The notes beneath the pieces were generated by a model, which had not been told where the DNA came from, searched no databases, and worked only from the letters and a program-made list of their open reading frames with translations. DNA of 64,000 bases from Sphingomonas albertensis. GTDB lineage: Bacteria > Pseudomonadota > Alphaproteobacteria > Sphingomonadales > Sphingomonadaceae. The stretch's first letter is position 1. Each line of letters opens with the position of its first letter. This document shows, in pieces, positions 14,846 through 64,000 of this stretch. The stretch is taken from NCBI RefSeq assembly GCF_014358075.1, contig NZ_JACONT010000010.1, positions 1 to 64,000 of the forward strand. The letters are read 5' to 3'. The position numbers were made by a program, and so were the translations under genes.

Positions 14846-14906
14846 GCGCGATGTCTAGAGCGTCCGCATGCGTCGTCAATCTCGCGGTCCGGATCTCACG
14901 ATGGTT

Positions 14907-14958
14907 GTGCACGGCGGTCGTGCACGGCGGTCGTGCACGGCGGTCGTGCACGGCGGTC
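14907..14958. repeat. Four tandem copies of a 13-bp repeat
   Basis: The unit GTGCACGGCGGTC is repeated four times head to tail without any mismatch. It fills the middle of the 120-base space between the desaturase gene (ends 14966) and the start of the ECF sigma gene (14845), both read leftward. Each unit contains the palindrome GTGCAC. It could be a slippage-prone spacer or a cluster of protein-binding sites in front of the sigma-factor operon. Confidence 0.95.
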
Positions 14959-14965
14959 GTGATTG

Positions 14966-15850
14966 TCAGGCGGCCCGGCGGGTCGCGCGGCGCACCACGT
15001 CGCGATAGCCGTGCGACAGCGAATCGAATCCATCATAGAAGCCTCGCGCTTTCAGCAGGCGGTGCATCCGCGCGAGCCGGTAGGGCGGAACACCCGCCGC
15101 CACGTGATGCTCGACATGATAATTGACGTGGTTCGGGGCGACCAGCAGCCGCTCCCACCAGGATACCATCGTGGTCGCGGTGTTCATGCGCGGATCTGCA
15201 TCGCCGCGATCGGGCACGACACCATGCTCGCCGATCTGGCGGAGGCGCGCGATCACAGGATAGGCGAAGATCTGCGCGACCCACCACAGACCGTACGCCC
15301 ACCAGCCGCCCGCCAGCGCGAGCACGGCGAACAGGCCGATATGAAAGGCGACCCAGGGCCATTGCTTGGCGATCGTAAAGCGCGCGAGCGACTGGACGAG
15401 ATCGCGCCAGCCGGTGCGGCCGGTCACGTCGCGCATCAGCTTGCGACGCAGCGCCTGGGCGGTGATCGGATAACTGGCGACGAAGCCGAGATCGGGATCG
15501 TCGGGGGTTCCGGCATGGCGATGGTGCGCCAGATGGTAGGTGCGATAGTCCTGGAGCGACAGGTTGATCGGCGTCCCCGCGAGCCATTGCCCGACGACCT
15601 CGTTGGTGCGCCGGTCGGTGAACAGCGCGTTGTGCGCGCAATCATGCACGAGGATGCCGAGCCCGAGCTGGCGCGCGGCGATGACCGGGATCGCGGCGAG
15701 GATCGTCAGCGGGTTGGGCCAGATGATCGCGACGGCGAACGCGCCTGCGATCAACCCCCAGTTCACGGCGAACGCCCACCACGCCCGCAGATTAGACCGG
15801 CGCGTCAATGCGGCCAGTTCGTCCCTTGCAAGAAAATCGGTTACCTTCAT
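14966..15850 (-). CDS. Membrane fatty acid desaturase
   Basis: The product is an integral-membrane di-iron desaturase/hydroxylase of about 294 residues. All three histidine boxes are present: HDCAHN (69-74), HLAHH (106-110) and HVEHH (245-249). Membrane helices surround them (FAVNWGLIAGAFAVAIIW near 28-45 and WVAFHIGLFAVLALAGGWW near 166-184). The start at MKVTDFLARDEL is preferred over an in-frame ATG 17 codons upstream. The gene diverges from a PaaX-like regulator only 42 bases away, which probably controls it. The lipid substrate and double-bond position cannot be read from the sequence; carotenoid-type relatives exist in sphingomonads. Confidence 0.88.
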   Translation of the reverse strand: MKVTDFLARDELAALTRRSNLRAWWAFAVNWGLIAGAFAVAIIWPNPLTILAAIPVIAARQLGLGILVHDCAHNALFTDRRTNEVVGQWLAGTPINLSLQDYRTYHLAHHRHAGTPDDPDLGFVASYPITAQALRRKLMRDVTGRTGWRDLVQSLARFTIAKQWPWVAFHIGLFAVLALAGGWWAYGLWWVAQIFAYPVIARLRQIGEHGVVPDRGDADPRMNTATTMVSWWERLLVAPNHVNYHVEHHVAAGVPPYRLARMHRLLKARGFYDGFDSLSHGYRDVVRRATRRAA

Positions 15851-37354: not shown

Positions 37355-37543
37355 TTACAAAGCGCGACCGAGGCGAGATTCCCGGCTCCGCATCAACCGA
37401 AAGAGCTCGGCTTGGTACAGCGCGTCGTGGAGTGCATCGTGATCGCCGTGGAGCTGGGGATTGATTTCTTCCGCGATGCGGCTTGAGCGGGTGTCCGTCC
37501 AAGTGCAACCCGACACACCCATCCAGAGCGCTTTGATGTCTAA
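37355..37543 (-). pseudogene. 3'-5' exonuclease-like C-terminal fragment
   Basis: The frame from [22 protein letters not shown] to [19 protein letters not shown] looks like the end of a DEDD-type 3'-5' exonuclease, where an HxAxxDAxxQAxLF block holds the last catalytic His and Asp. Everything upstream of LDIK belongs to a different reading frame and a different gene remnant, so the N-terminal part with the DxE motif is lost. It lies just beyond the AlpA gene inside the decayed cargo. Confidence 0.55.
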
Positions 37544-37688
37544 GCGCCGCCCGGTCTGCGCAGGCGGCGCAAAACGCCCGATAGTCGCCAATCGGGGTTG
37601 GCGACTGCGTTTTGCGACGATCAGGAGGCTGCCGTCCGAAATCACCTGTTTGTCGAACAGCTGTGATCACGACCGGTTTTCCGCACAT
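37542..37688 (-). pseudogene. Truncated copy of a small CxxC protein
   Basis: The frame contains [26 protein letters not shown], whose last 24 codons (37542-37613) align without gaps to the small open frame at 58054-58194 (KTQSQSRLHDKQVFCAACAERLAL). Differences within the FCAACA block fall mainly at third codon positions. Immediately after this block the DNA switches to an exonuclease-like fragment in another frame, so this copy was cut by a deletion or recombination. Confidence 0.5.
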
Positions 37689-58053: not shown

Positions 58054-58194
58054 TTATGTCGTCGACTCGGATCGGGCTATTGGGGTCGGTACATAGAACG
58101 GACCCAGAGATATGCTAAGCGCCAACCGCTCTGCGCAGGCGGCGCAGAACACCTGCTTGTCGTGCAGTCGTGATTGCGACTGGGTTTTTTCCAT
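58054..58194 (-). CDS. Small CxxC protein
   Basis: A 46-residue open frame begins MEKTQSQSRLHDKQ, followed by VFCAACAERLALSISLGPFYVPTPIARSES. The CAAC pair could bind metal or form a disulfide. The KTQS...FCAAC(A)xRxAL block is repeated, at the same length and with mostly third-position differences in the FCAACA part, at 37542-37613. That argues the frame is real. No signal peptide or membrane helix is seen. Function unknown; a regulatory peptide or toxin-antitoxin part cannot be told apart. Confidence 0.5.
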   Translation of the reverse strand: MEKTQSQSRLHDKQVFCAACAERLALSISLGPFYVPTPIARSESTT

Positions 58195-59797: not shown

Positions 59798-60076
59798 TCA
59801 TTTCCCCCCACCAGCAGTAGCGACATACGCCGCACGGCTTGCCTGCCGCAAGCAGAGTACCTGCCGGCGGGCACGTTGCGGCTCATGGCTTGGCGAATGG
59901 CCTTCAGGCTTGCGGATCGCCAAACTGAGTGTCCAGAAGCAAGTGTTTTCGACCGATCCCTTTTTCCGATCGGCGTTATGTTTTGGAAAGAAAAGTGCGG
60001 CAGTTTGAGTGCCGACTACAGTAATTATCAAACAGTGAAACAGCTTGATCACCGGGAGCCATGTCCTATCTAGAAA
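59798..60076. promoter_or_regulatory. Intergenic with promoter for the terC leader
   Basis: No gene is recognised here. At the right end TTGATC (60045-60050), a 16-base spacer and TATCTA (60067-60072) form a sigma-70-like promoter, followed four bases later by the conserved leader element. The same geometry recurs at 63894-63921. Confidence 0.6.
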
Positions 60077-60147
60077 GAGCGGGCCGGGCCCCTCTGACAG
60101 TTTCCCTCGGGTTATTGTGATGTCGGACCGCATCGGGTTATCTCGAT
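60077..60147 (+). ncRNA. Conserved leader/sRNA element, copy 1
   Basis: A 20-base block (GAGCGGGCCGGGCCCCTCTG) and a 31-base block (60117-60147, starting GTGATGTCGGACC and ending with a hairpin ATCGG-GTTATC-TCGAT) flank a 20-base variable centre. Both blocks are identical in copy 2 (63926-63996), whose centre has the same length but another sequence. GCGGGCCG in block one can pair with CGGACCGC in block two (one G-A mismatch), closing the centre. A promoter lies four bases upstream and terC begins 288 bases downstream. I infer a structured leader or small RNA; it does not match riboswitch classes I know. Confidence 0.6.
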
Positions 60148-60224
60148 ATAGGCCTGGCCGCTTTGCCTCCTGTCGTCGTTGATGATCCGAGCTTTCGATC
60201 ACCGATTGAAAAGAGGCTCTGAGC

Positions 60225-60329
60225 ATGGAAACGAACAGATCGGCACAGCTCCATCAGCAGTTGGACGAGCACGCGCGTATCGCGATGGCGCGCCGAACCC
60301 CGACTTCTCCAATTGTGCTGCAATTGTAG
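60225..60329 (+). CDS. Possible 34-residue leader peptide before terC
   Basis: ATG follows AAGAGGCTCTGAGC and opens a 34-codon frame, METNRSAQLHQQLDEHARIA continuing to PIVLQL and TAG. It lies between the conserved RNA element and terC on the same strand. The composition (Gln/His/Arg-rich helix) is protein-like, but the length is too short to be sure. It could be a regulatory upstream peptide or an independent small protein. Confidence 0.35.
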   Translation: METNRSAQLHQQLDEHARIAMARRTPTSPIVLQL

Positions 60330-60435: not shown

Positions 60436-61413
60436 ATGCCTGAGCTGCTCTCCTTGTTATTCCTTGGTACCCCTGTCTGGATGTGGCTGGCATTTCTCGG
60501 CATCGTCGCAACATTGCTGATCCTCGATCTGGGTGTCTTGCACCGCGGACAACGGGAAATCGGAGTACGCGAGAGTCTTGCATTGTCAGCAGGTTACATC
60601 ACGCTGGGACTGGCGTTCGGCGGGTGGATTTGGTGGTATATCGGGCCTACTGCTGGCCTCAACTACGTGACGGGCTTCGTCATCGAGAAGAGTCTCGCCA
60701 TGGATAACGTGTTCATCATCGCCATGATCTTCGGCTACTTCGCCATCCCAGGCATCCATCAGCACCGCGTACTGTTCTGGGGCATCCTAGGTGTCATTGT
60801 CCTGCGTGCAGTGATGATCGGTTTTGGCGCGGCATTGGTCGATCGGTTCGAATGGGTATTGTACGTCTTTGCTGCCTTCCTGGTTTTCACCGGTATCAAG
60901 ATGTGGCTGACTGCCGACACGGAATATGACGTAGCCAGTTCGCCCGTTTTACGCTGGATTCGCCAGCGCATGCCGGTTACCGACCAACTTCACGGGGAAC
61001 GTTTCTGGGTAAAAGAGCAGGACCCGGCGACTGGGCGCATGCGCCGGATCGCTACGCCGTTGCTACTGGCTCTGGTCATGATCGAATGCGCTGACGTCAT
61101 TTTTGCGGTCGATTCTGTACCGGCTATCTTCGCGATCACAACGGATCCATTTATCGTCTACACGTCGAACATCTTTGCTATCCTTGGGTTACGCGCACTC
61201 TATTTTGCGCTCGCCGCAATGGTCGACCGGTTCCATTACCTGAAATACGCCTTAGCCGCGTTGCTGGTGTTTATCGGCTCGAAAATTTTCGTTGCCGACA
61301 TGTTCGGGCTCGCCAAATTCCCGCCCGCAGCGTCGTTGGCGGTAACCTTTGCGATACTGGGTTGCGGCGTCGGCTGGTCCCTGTGGAAAACGCGAGCGGC
61401 TGCTTCGGCCTGA
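60436..61413 (+). CDS. TerC/Alx-family membrane protein
   Basis: The product is a 325-residue integral membrane protein with about nine helices. Both family signatures are present: GFVIEKSLAMDNVFIIAMIFGYFAIP (near residue 75) and LVMIECADVIFAVDSVPAIFAITTDPFIVYTSNIFAILGLRALYF (near 215). Their acidic residues in membrane helices suit metal-ion (manganese/calcium) transport. A predicted loop (residues about 165-200) lies in the cytoplasm. ATG at 60436 follows AGAGG; a TTG five codons earlier is possible. The upstream 360 bases hold a conserved RNA-like element. Confidence 0.93.
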   Translation: MPELLSLLFLGTPVWMWLAFLGIVATLLILDLGVLHRGQREIGVRESLALSAGYITLGLAFGGWIWWYIGPTAGLNYVTGFVIEKSLAMDNVFIIAMIFGYFAIPGIHQHRVLFWGILGVIVLRAVMIGFGAALVDRFEWVLYVFAAFLVFTGIKMWLTADTEYDVASSPVLRWIRQRMPVTDQLHGERFWVKEQDPATGRMRRIATPLLLALVMIECADVIFAVDSVPAIFAITTDPFIVYTSNIFAILGLRALYFALAAMVDRFHYLKYALAALLVFIGSKIFVADMFGLAKFPPAASLAVTFAILGCGVGWSLWKTRAAASA

Positions 61414-61574: not shown

Positions 61575-62408
61575 ATGCGCGCCGTTTTAGCCATCATCGC
61601 GCTAGTCTCTGCTCAACCTTGCTTCGCGCAAACTGACCCGAGGCCAGGCCCGCCTGCAGGTAGGCCTTTGGAGGCAGGCACTGCCGGATGGAGCATTACC
61701 GTTGGCGTCGCGTCAGTCCTCAGTCCTGCATGGCAAGGCTCGCGAGACATGGCCTTGTCGATTTTTCCCGACTTGCGGCTCAACTACAAGGACGTGATCT
61801 TTGCCTCGATTCCTGACGGTTTGGGCTGGAATGTGGTGAACCACGACGGGTGGAAGGCAGGACCTCTGGCCAAACTCCGCTTCGGGCGGGATGAGGAGCG
61901 CGGGGGATCGCCGTTCCTCATTACAGGCGGGAGTGACGCGCTACGCGGCCTCGGCGACGTAGATGCAGCTGTTGAGGTGGGAGGCTTTATCGAGAAACGG
62001 GCTGGGCCATGGCGTGGACGGATCGAGGTTCGTCGCGGCTTCGGCGGACATGACGGCGTTGTCGCCGACGGGTCAGTTGCTTACCAAGCGCGCCGGGGAC
62101 GGACCATCATCAACGTCGGGCCTCGCGCAACGCTGGCAAGCCGCGAGTATATCGAGACGTATTTCGGCATCGATGCGGTCCAGTCGCAACGGTCCGGGCT
62201 TAGACCGTATTCTGCGTCAGGCGGACTATTGTCCTACGGTGTAGGCGGTACCGTAATTCGTCCCCTGAGCCGGCGAAGCGCCGTCACGCTTTTCACTGGC
62301 CTGGATCAACTAGGTCAGAACGCAGGCGATTCACCTCTCGTCCGCGAACGTGGGCGCCGGACCCAATTCACCCTAGGTCTCGGCTACGGATTTAGGTTCA
62401 ACCTCTAA
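61575..62408 (+). CDS. MipA/OmpV-family outer-membrane protein
   Basis: The product is 277 residues with a signal peptide (MRAVLAIIALVSAQPCFAQ). WSITVGVASVLSPAWQGSRDMALSIFPDLRLNYKDVIFASIPDGLGWNVV at the N-terminus of the mature chain, then GWKAGPLAKLRFGRDE and a C-terminal FTLGLGYGFRFNL, are characteristic of MipA/OmpV barrels. MipA scaffolds peptidoglycan enzymes in E. coli; OmpV-like proteins are small porin-like barrels. It converges with the following gene, and their ends overlap by 11 bases. Confidence 0.9.
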   Translation: MRAVLAIIALVSAQPCFAQTDPRPGPPAGRPLEAGTAGWSITVGVASVLSPAWQGSRDMALSIFPDLRLNYKDVIFASIPDGLGWNVVNHDGWKAGPLAKLRFGRDEERGGSPFLITGGSDALRGLGDVDAAVEVGGFIEKRAGPWRGRIEVRRGFGGHDGVVADGSVAYQARRGRTIINVGPRATLASREYIETYFGIDAVQSQRSGLRPYSASGGLLSYGVGGTVIRPLSRRSAVTLFTGLDQLGQNAGDSPLVRERGRRTQFTLGLGYGFRFNL

Positions 62409-63189
62409 TCGAATCAGACGCATATACCCTACGCCGGTAGCCAGCGACCAAGCCTGAAATAACGAGGATCGCGGCAGCGCCGGTTGCTACGGCAATAGGT
62501 CCTGCAGCTTGGCCACCTGCAGCGAAGATAGCAGCAAGAGCCCAAAGGAAAACAGCTGCGTACGGCAGATTGCCACGTCCTCGGACCAGCACGGTGGCCG
62601 CGATGAGTCCAGCAATCACGATCACCGCTGCACCGATTACCGGCGCGGCTGCACCGCCCTCCATGCCGTGATACCTCAGGCTAGCTGCGATGTTGACGGT
62701 GGTAGCGACGGTCAACCATGCGGCGAGCGCGCTCAACGGAAGGTACGCACACCACCACGCGGTTTTCGACACCGCCGCATTCGACAGGGCACGATAGGCA
62801 ATGATCAGGCACGTCAGCGTGAAGGTAATGATCAGAACCGATACGAAGCTTAACCCGTAAAGCTGTGTGTAAGCAGCCCAGAGTGCGTTCCCCAAAAATG
62901 CGCCCGCTGCCGGCCAGCGCAGGCGATGAAGCAATGCATTTTGGCGCTGTGCGGGCAGGGCCTGATAAACAGCAAACACCGTGGCTCCGAGGTAGAGCGC
63001 GCCCCAGATCGAGAATGCCCAGCCTGCCGGGGTTATCAAGGTTCGGACCGCCAGAGACCGGGATCCGATAGGCTCACCGATCCCAATCTGCGGTAAAAGA
63101 GGCGTTAGAATTTGAAGCGCTGCTGTCAGCAGCACCGCGAGATGCGGCAGATCGAACGCGGTCCGTTGGGGTAAGGTATTCGTTGCCAT
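62398..63189 (-). CDS. TspO/MBR-like multi-helix membrane protein
   Basis: The product is 263 residues with seven to eight helices. ITPAGWAFSIWGALYLGATVFAVYQALP and WPAAGAFLGNALWAAYTQLYGLSFVSVLIIT resemble the 'tPp-wvF--vW-~lY' and 'N--W--~f' patterns of TspO-related proteins, and W-rich TAWWCAYLPLSALAAWLTVATTVN fits too. It is longer than true TspO (five helices, about 160 residues), so it belongs to the extended group of unknown role. The start at MATNTLPQRTAF is chosen over a 36-codon upstream extension. Confidence 0.65.
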   Translation of the reverse strand: MATNTLPQRTAFDLPHLAVLLTAALQILTPLLPQIGIGEPIGSRSLAVRTLITPAGWAFSIWGALYLGATVFAVYQALPAQRQNALLHRLRWPAAGAFLGNALWAAYTQLYGLSFVSVLIITFTLTCLIIAYRALSNAAVSKTAWWCAYLPLSALAAWLTVATTVNIAASLRYHGMEGGAAAPVIGAAVIVIAGLIAATVLVRGRGNLPYAAVFLWALAAIFAAGGQAAGPIAVATGAAAILVISGLVAGYRRRVYASDSIRG

Positions 63190-63379
63190 TTTTCCACAAC
63201 GGCCGATCAGCTTACGCGTTGCAATGTCACAAAGAAACTCGCTCGCATTCAGCGCTATCGTACTTAAACGGTCCTCGGGCGCCTGACATATTGTCATTTA
63301 CCCGAGGCTTCAGTGGGACGACCCAGAGGCCTTTATCCACGATCCCGGTTGCGACGCGAAGGCGGTATCTTATCGTGTT

Positions 63380-63664: not shown

Positions 63665-63925
63665 TACACGGTTTCCACTTATTCGAGATCATGGGCGCGC
63701 AGAACGCGTCCCAAAGGTCAGATCGAATAAAGCCCGAACTCGAGCGGCAGTGGCCGCGAGCTCGGGCTAAGCGCGTGCGGCGAGTTGGCCGGCGTGGTCG
63801 CGGAAACGCTTATGTGTCGCAGGAGCGTACATGCCAGTAACATCGGGGACCCGTGTCCTAATGTCAACTCGTGCAAATCCATTTGCTCTCCTATTGACCT
63901 TGACCGGCTAAACCCTAGCTTGAGG
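63665..63925. promoter_or_regulatory. Intergenic with promoter before element copy 2
   Basis: No supported gene. TTGACC (63894-63899), 16 bases and TAGCTT (63916-63921) form a promoter with the same spacing, and the same four-base distance to the conserved block, as upstream of copy 1. Confidence 0.5.
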
Positions 63926-63996
63926 GAGCGGGCCGGGCCCCTCTGGCGGTCGTCTCAGGACGAACGTGATGTCGGACCGCATCGGGTTATCTCGAT
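63926..63996 (+). ncRNA. Conserved leader/sRNA element, copy 2
   Basis: The 20-base and 31-base outer blocks are identical to copy 1 at 60077-60147. The 20-base centre differs: it holds TCGTC-TCAG-GACGA, a five-base hairpin with a tetraloop. The element ends four bases before the window edge, so the gene it serves, if any, lies outside. It is preceded by a promoter with the same geometry as copy 1. Confidence 0.6.
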
Positions 63997-64000
63997 GTCT

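Follow-up and report, generated by a model that had tools for sequence, protein, structure and literature searches.

The window analysed here, a stretch of 64,000 nucleotides from Sphingomonas albertensis, carries the same pair of sequence blocks twice, once ahead of terC and once at its right edge, which raises the question of whether a structured RNA stands in front of these genes and how it could act on them. In a direct letter comparison across the window, the first block (60077-60096 and 63926-63945) is identical at 20 of 20 positions and the second (60117-60147 and 63966-63996) at 31 of 31, whereas the central 20 nt between them agree at 7 of 20. For 51 matches in this layout about 4e-22 position pairs are expected by chance (64 kb, equal base frequencies), and a repeat finder run on the window recovered the same pair, 3849 nt apart. 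The initial annotation had described these identical 20-nt and 31-nt blocks around an unrelated 20-nt spacer, and its coordinates and identities were exact on recheck. Its proposal that the first block pairs with the second round the centre corresponds to helix P1, and its hairpin in the 3' block to P3 (ATCGGG-TTAT-CTCGAT), for which relatives contain compensatory changes. The variable centre, a stem-loop that we call P2, does have the same length in both window copies as had been claimed, but its length differs across other loci. The window also holds a 74-nt direct repeat (37540-37613 and 58115-58188, 76% identical) that ends in a hairpin-like stretch and TTTT, as well as a 13-nt tandem repeat, CACGGCGGTCGTG, with 5-6 units at 14897-14974, the final one diverged.

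Both copies belong to a catalogued family. Using cmscan with the gathering cut-off of 39.9, they match RF03067 ("terC RNA") over all 59 model positions (1-59) with 52.6 bits for copy 1 and 59.2 bits for copy 2, and Rfam lists the entry as type Cis-reg, in line with the structured cis-acting RNA that had been postulated from the letters. Neither copy was called RF00080, which bears out the remark that the element is unlike yybP-ykoY. A weak match to ar9, an sRNA of Alphaproteobacteria, at 63052-63194 (25.9 bits against a cut-off of 45), antisense to the ORF 62398-63297, is probably due to chance. Searching the genome with RF03067 revealed a third copy on the minus strand of another contig (G000:C10:49592-49651, 60.9 bits). 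Beyond this genome, the RNA was found in 14 of 61 relatives searched, in 216 of 397 genomes of the same family-rank group and in 52 of 385 genomes of the class (40 of 289 in a smaller draw), with up to 5 copies per genome. A pattern scan of named genomes gave at least 119 stretches, and the 80 matches listed came mostly from Alphaproteobacteria and also included Pseudomonas, an Arenimonas MAG and one stray gammaproteobacterial MAG. Given its membership in RF03067 and its presence in many genomes, the element itself is not new. The coordinates of its parts and neighbours are collected in Table 1.

Table 1. Features of the terC RNA copies and their surroundings in the window.
Feature	Position	Strand	Basis
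-35/-10-like hexamers, copy 1: TTGATC (60045-60050), TATCTA (60067-60072), spacer 16	60045-60072	+	sequence
terC RNA core, copy 1: P1, conserved internal loop GCCCCUCUG/GAUGU, variable stem-loop P2	60076-60135	+	cmscan RF03067
P2 stem-loop, copy 1 (variable centre)	60097-60118	+	model alignment and fold
P3 hairpin, copy 1, largely beyond the Rfam model	60132-60147	+	sequence; compensatory changes in relatives
P3 5' arm and loop, copy 1, strand common to P3 and P3*	60133-60142	+	ten contiguous pairs with 60181-60190
Anti-P3, copy 1 (GATGATCCGA), alternative partner of 60133-60142	60181-60190	+	pairing; covariation in relatives; held-out test
Predicted hairpin P4, copy 1, between anti-P3 and Shine-Dalgarno sequence	60193-60211	+	fold prediction only
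Shine-Dalgarno-like AGAGG, copy 1 leader	60212-60216	+	sequence
Short ORF, 34 aa, truncated DUF465 relative with in-frame stop	60225-60329	+	11/21 residues identical to copy 3 DUF465 protein
terC (TerC, PF03741), probable start ATG 60436	60436-61413	+	Pfam 178.8 bits; start by Shine-Dalgarno score
-35/-10-like hexamers, copy 2: TTGACC (63894-63899), TAGCTT (63916-63921), spacer 16	63894-63921	+	sequence
terC RNA core, copy 2	63925-63984	+	cmscan RF03067
P3 hairpin, copy 2	63979-63998	+	sequence, fold
Anti-P3, copy 2	about 64034-64042 (G000:C2), past window end		pairing with copy 2 P3 arm

For the comparative work, loci were divided into type 1, in which GCATCG or a near variant, as a rule with the hairpin P3, comes after the core, and type 2, which has no GCATCG after P1. 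The discovery set comprised 147 loci, reduced from 168 by dropping near-duplicates of >80% identity; 42 of these are type 1, and the searched GCATCG start of P3 is absent in the other 105. A held-out set was drawn from another 109 loci from the same family-rank group, in which 84 of 111 hits were non-redundant both mutually and against the discovery set (27 dropped as near-duplicates at the same threshold), 70 of the 84 being type 1. Additional type-2 loci, for which the searches in three orders covered 10, 3 and 2 genomes, were reduced from 35 to 22 after near-duplicate removal. The stray gammaproteobacterial match (L104) and loci with too little downstream sequence were left out before any counts were made. 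A start codon together with a purine-rich site was found in 99 of the 112 type-1 loci, and these 99 leaders plus window copy 1 make up a 100-row alignment. A smaller alignment of 57 rows contains window copy 1 and 56 of the 99 leaders, which were picked by eye after viewing their matches, so its figures are biased upward.

Upstream of the core, a strict promoter-like pattern at a constant position was found in 69 of the 231 non-redundant loci, compared with a mean of 5.2 and a maximum of 16 in 200 mononucleotide shuffles. Position-specific base preferences above 0.25 bits were present in the 112 loci of type 1, which is also the type of the window copies, and none was detected in the 119 type-2 loci. 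This position-specific signal makes it likely that transcription of type-1 loci begins at the element, with a start at about its first base. The arrangement that had been noted in the window, with each copy four bases behind a -10-like hexamer and a 16-nt spacer to the -35, agrees in its coordinates.

Within type-1 leaders, the 5' arm of P3 is complementary not only to its own 3' arm but also to a segment about 45-80 nt downstream, just ahead of the ribosome-binding site. We refer to this segment as anti-P3 and to the resulting helix as P3*. In copy 1, TCGGGTTATC faces GATGATCCGA in ten pairs, while copies 3 and 2 form eleven and nine, respectively. The idea of a strand exchange was formed on the 42 discovery loci and then tested on the 70 further non-redundant ones. 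In the discovery set, pairing with the locus' own partner reached -13.09 kcal/mol against -10.43 for swapped partners (sd 0.295), and the held-out loci gave -13.25 against -10.75 kcal/mol (sd 0.234), with 0 of 2000 permutations as good in both cases. The longest Watson-Crick run in the held-out set behaved alike (6.01 for own and 5.22 for swapped partners, 0/2000). When swaps were restricted to loci with the same P3 hexamer, again none of 5000 was as good, either for all 112 loci or for the held-out 70, and a shared hexamer alone consequently does not explain the covariation of P3*. The 13 nt that follow the P3 5' arm and contain the P3 3' arm served as a control segment, which also surpassed its swaps by energy in the discovery set (-12.88 against -11.49 kcal/mol, 0/2000; 466/2000 by run) and less so in the held-out set (30/2000 by energy, 447/2000 by run), so that energy alone is not fully specific to P3*. 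For the P2 arm the held-out set showed no excess over swapped partners (1522/2000 by energy, 661/2000 by run). A long match is present in only part of the loci: with G-U pairs counted, 45 of the 112 own pairings include a run of at least 8, where swaps predict 21.4.

The alignments add to this picture. In the 100-row alignment, 84.7% of the cells in the eight P3* pairs are paired, as against 12.9-37.9% when the partner is slid. Double changes that keep the pair fill 84 cells compared with 32.2 after shuffling, and the covariation score is 0.225 compared with 0.147 (0/500 shuffles for both), whereas no excess was seen in the same alignment in how many pairs have a double change (4 vs 4.0) or in the count of further pair types (14 vs 13.5); all these pair-count shuffles ignore relatedness among the rows. 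The core of anti-P3 is missing at the aligned place in 31 of the 100 rows. In the eye-picked 57-row alignment, P3 is paired in 94.5% of cells with 24 double-change cells against 11.5 shuffled, and P3* in 87.3% with a likewise elevated number of such cells; pairs with a double change and further pair types did not rise above shuffles for either helix. Since P3* extends into the loop of P3 (columns 83-84), P3 itself does not explain these pairs, and since both helices use columns 77-82 on one strand, they exclude each other. The initial annotation had made its RNA interpretation depend on compensatory changes in diverging copies, and such changes are seen in both P3 and P3* of the relatives. By comparative evidence, the leader is hence connected to the ribosome-binding site through helices of which only one can form at a time, a feature looked for in a riboswitch. 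As the Rfam consensus ends six positions after P1, the model holds neither the whole of P3 nor anti-P3. These comparisons suggest that P3* is a newly evidenced switching part of a known Rfam family, although it may have been published earlier.

The promoter-like hexamers at the 5' end of type-1 loci and the several copies per genome, up to 5 in one case (G003), would also suit a separate trans-acting small RNA that lies near genes by chance. We regard this as very improbable, because the same gene families recur downstream on the same strand and because the partner strand in P3* covaries with the leader and adjoins the ribosome-binding site of the gene itself.

Taken as a whole, we think it fairly probable that terC RNA is the sensor of a riboswitch-like leader, in which the exchange between P3 and P3* likely switches translation of the next gene. 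Transcription would start at about the first base of the element, and the conserved internal loop GCCCCUCUG/GAUGU would bind a ligand or a protein. Binding could then steer the P3 5' arm either to the 3' arm of its hairpin or to anti-P3, which lies shortly before the Shine-Dalgarno sequence, and this choice would alter the access of the ribosome. The signal is probably related to cations, protons or the envelope, as judged solely from the genes behind the element.

In constrained folds of 57 leaders, the median of G(P3)-G(P3*) was -0.5 kcal/mol and P3* was lower in 24 of 57. The Shine-Dalgarno sequence is predicted to be slightly more open with P3* than with P3 (0.42 vs 0.32, Wilcoxon p=0.0018), a small difference. 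The row of window copy 1 had been wrongly extended in this run, and the three copies of the genome were refolded separately. By ViennaRNA ensemble energy, P3* is less stable than P3 by 6.7 kcal/mol in copy 1 and by 5.9 kcal/mol in copy 2, owing to the 5' strand of P1 re-pairing with AGGCCTGGCC right behind P3, whereas copy 3 favours P3* by 1.7 kcal/mol as the only one of the three. This predicted competitor of P1 for the 5' strand lies at 60150-60159 in copy 1 and is also found in copy 2, there outside the window. Openness with P3 and P3*, respectively, was 0.52 and 0.67 for copy 1, 0.17 and 0.21 for copy 2, and 0.18 and 0.33 for copy 3. The folding models thus weakly support P3* as the ON state, since the gap in openness is small and the stabilities of the copies are mixed.

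The linker between P3 and anti-P3 deserves attention in this context, because the strand exchange could instead control Rho-dependent termination, with the C-rich linker as a Rho loading site that is exposed in one of the two states. C exceeds G in 50 of the 57 eye-chosen rows (0.39 vs 0.247; 0.299 and 0.301 upstream), YC density is 0.257 compared with 0.135 upstream and 0.145 in coding sequence, and in bases 30-62 downstream C outnumbers G in 94 of the 112 type-1 loci. However, this bias is not strong, and a letter count shows copy 1 to have an only mildly C-rich linker. Typical Rho sites are longer than 37 nt, which is the median length of the linker, and the predicted hairpin P4 beside the Shine-Dalgarno sequence fits control of translation better. 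We therefore consider termination by Rho unlikely and prefer an effect on translation.

In type-2 loci, the data hint at a different partner for the core. The apical loop of P2 pairs with sequence before the start codon better than expected in the discovery set (n=105; -5.3 vs -4.64, sd 0.133, 0/500), while a control stretch (60-110) gave 1202/2000. In the held-out set (n=34) the values were -4.61 and -4.08 (sd 0.219, 20/2000), with 48/2000 for a shorter stretch and 303/2000 for the control stretch, which weakly supports a putative P2-loop pseudoknot there. The same pseudoknot is unsupported in type-1 loci, where 44 of 500 permutations did equally well. A single core combined with varying partners downstream would be in keeping with a sensor whose platforms are exchangeable. 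On inspection by eye, the Shine-Dalgarno sequence seems to be covered by a hairpin in some leaders (L044, L055, L095). We also considered, and dropped, a pairing between the conserved CCCCUCUG loop and the Shine-Dalgarno sequence. The longest run complementary to the loop was 4.13 in controlled and 3.90 in other genes (p=0.004), and AGAGG precedes 22 of 117 controlled and 22 of 392 other genes, the start sites of the latter being rough; as AGGAG is more enriched (36/117 vs 28/392), the excess is not specific to this loop. GAUGUCGG may resemble a stretch of 23S rRNA.

With regard to the genes that the RNA may control, 171 distinct contexts were surveyed for ORFs starting within 900 nt downstream, taking one representative per cluster for a Pfam check; a locus may be counted in two clusters, and the ORF is not necessarily the gene next to the element. 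TerC (101) prevails, followed by DUF465 (29), TFIIB-type zinc ribbon (10), Bax1-I and DUF4112 (8 each), diacylglycerol-kinase-like (7), Tim44-like (4), TerB (clusters of 4, 3 and 2), Na/Ca exchanger (3), NhaA and DUF2076 (2 each); the representatives of three further clusters (L109, L173, L067) had no Pfam match. The RNA is thus found in cis upstream of protein genes that are often terC, as expected of RF03067, with TerC-like ORFs in 101 of 171 contexts and copy 1 ahead of one of the two TerC genes found in this genome. Read from the gene names only, the downstream families suggest cation/proton or envelope control. Tandem terC RNAs occur in two cases (L015/L020, G003:C4:425223 and 425636; L008/L021, G015:C10:12516 and 12853), the first of each pair preceding a DUF465 ORF and the second a TerC ORF. 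Besides, three back-to-back pairs on opposite strands, about 100-130 nt apart (G098:C2:1489503-1489712, G186:C157:2785-3024, G187:C9:125403-125616), suggest divergent promoters that share one intergenic region.

The variety of downstream families also bears on the nature of the sensor. The core could be the binding site of a regulatory protein rather than an aptamer for a small molecule or ion, and its small, highly conserved two-strand internal loop might suit a protein. On the other hand, at least 11 Pfam families lie within 900 nt downstream of this one core, which makes simple autoregulation by one product unlikely, and overall we are inclined to doubt a protein-sensed leader. A more far-reaching version of the aptamer reading can be put forward tentatively and with some reserve: a widespread alphaproteobacterial riboswitch that would respond to a cation or pH signal other than Mn2+, with one aptamer, at least two platforms (P3/P3* and the P2-loop pseudoknot) and a single regulon of TerC, TMBIM/Bax1-I, Na+/Ca2+ and Na+/H+ exchangers and DUF465.

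In this genome, copy 2 precedes a DUF465 gene beyond the window end (PF04325, 30.5 bits) and copy 3 an intact DUF465 gene (PF04325); in both cases a small protein without Pfam match and a Gcw_chp protein follow, and the divergent 94-aa proteins upstream are 58% identical to each other. From these common neighbours it follows that copies 2 and 3 arose with a duplicated gene block. The DUF465 ORF, intact behind copies 2 and 3, is truncated between copy 1 and terC, and a Pfam search of the remaining 34-aa ORF, which is similar to the beginning of DUF465 proteins, gave no match of its own. The shared neighbourhood (94-aa protein, DUF465, protein without Pfam match, Gcw_chp) would be compatible with a mobile or duplicated DNA repeat without RNA function, of which the two window copies were ends or passengers, but this is hardly credible in view of the compensatory pairing across many genomes. 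Moreover, a Pfam scan of ten proteins round the three copies detected no transposase family (matches were MFS, MipA, Gcw_chp, GGDEF/GAF/PAS, HAD, DUF465 and a weak DUF3930; three proteins had none), and the inverted repeats of at least 14 nt in their vicinity are short, imperfect and in no case placed as matching ends on either side of a copy. Ends of a transposable element, which the initial annotation had named as a possible refutation, are accordingly not apparent at the three copies.

If the riboswitch-like leader is confirmed, the candidate could be established as a defined riboswitch, and a regulatory context would emerge for the DUF465 proteins, which have been little studied. For terC RNA itself, our analysis adds a testable switching part and a list of gene families that it likely controls, and this genome offers three natural copies in two gene settings.

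Among known systems, the closest is the terC RNA family itself, whose whole 59-position model is matched by both window copies. Copy 1 precedes terC as the name implies, in contrast to copies 2 and 3, which precede DUF465. The family was reportedly first described by Weinberg et al. in 2017, a report that lay outside our literature search; the search found no paper naming RF03067 or an alphaproteobacterial terC motif or terC riboswitch, and among the matches listed, those for "terC motif" or "terC RNA" concerned human telomerase or its RNA. It is thus a catalogued RNA for which no proven function was found in the sources searched.

The manganese riboswitch yybP-ykoY (RF00080) is likewise a leader RNA of TerC-family genes. 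In Vibrio, mneA and terC reportedly lie downstream of a Mn-sensing element (PMC13274385), and TerC-family proteins are reported to have roles in metal handling (PMC10550928, PMC12096827, PMC13274385). RF00080 had no match in the window or in this genome; it matched in 37 of 99 relatives searched (23 of 99 above the cut-off). As 24 of these 37 also carry terC RNA, the two RNAs probably do not duplicate one signal. Mn2+ may nevertheless be the ligand of terC RNA, although Mn riboswitches coexist with it in relatives.

Finally, the alx/PRE element of E. coli is a pH-responsive leader whose alternative folds set the translation of a TerC-family gene. The likeness to the switch proposed for terC RNA lies in the way of working, namely alternative leader folds before a TerC-family gene; that terC RNA might sense pH is a conjecture.
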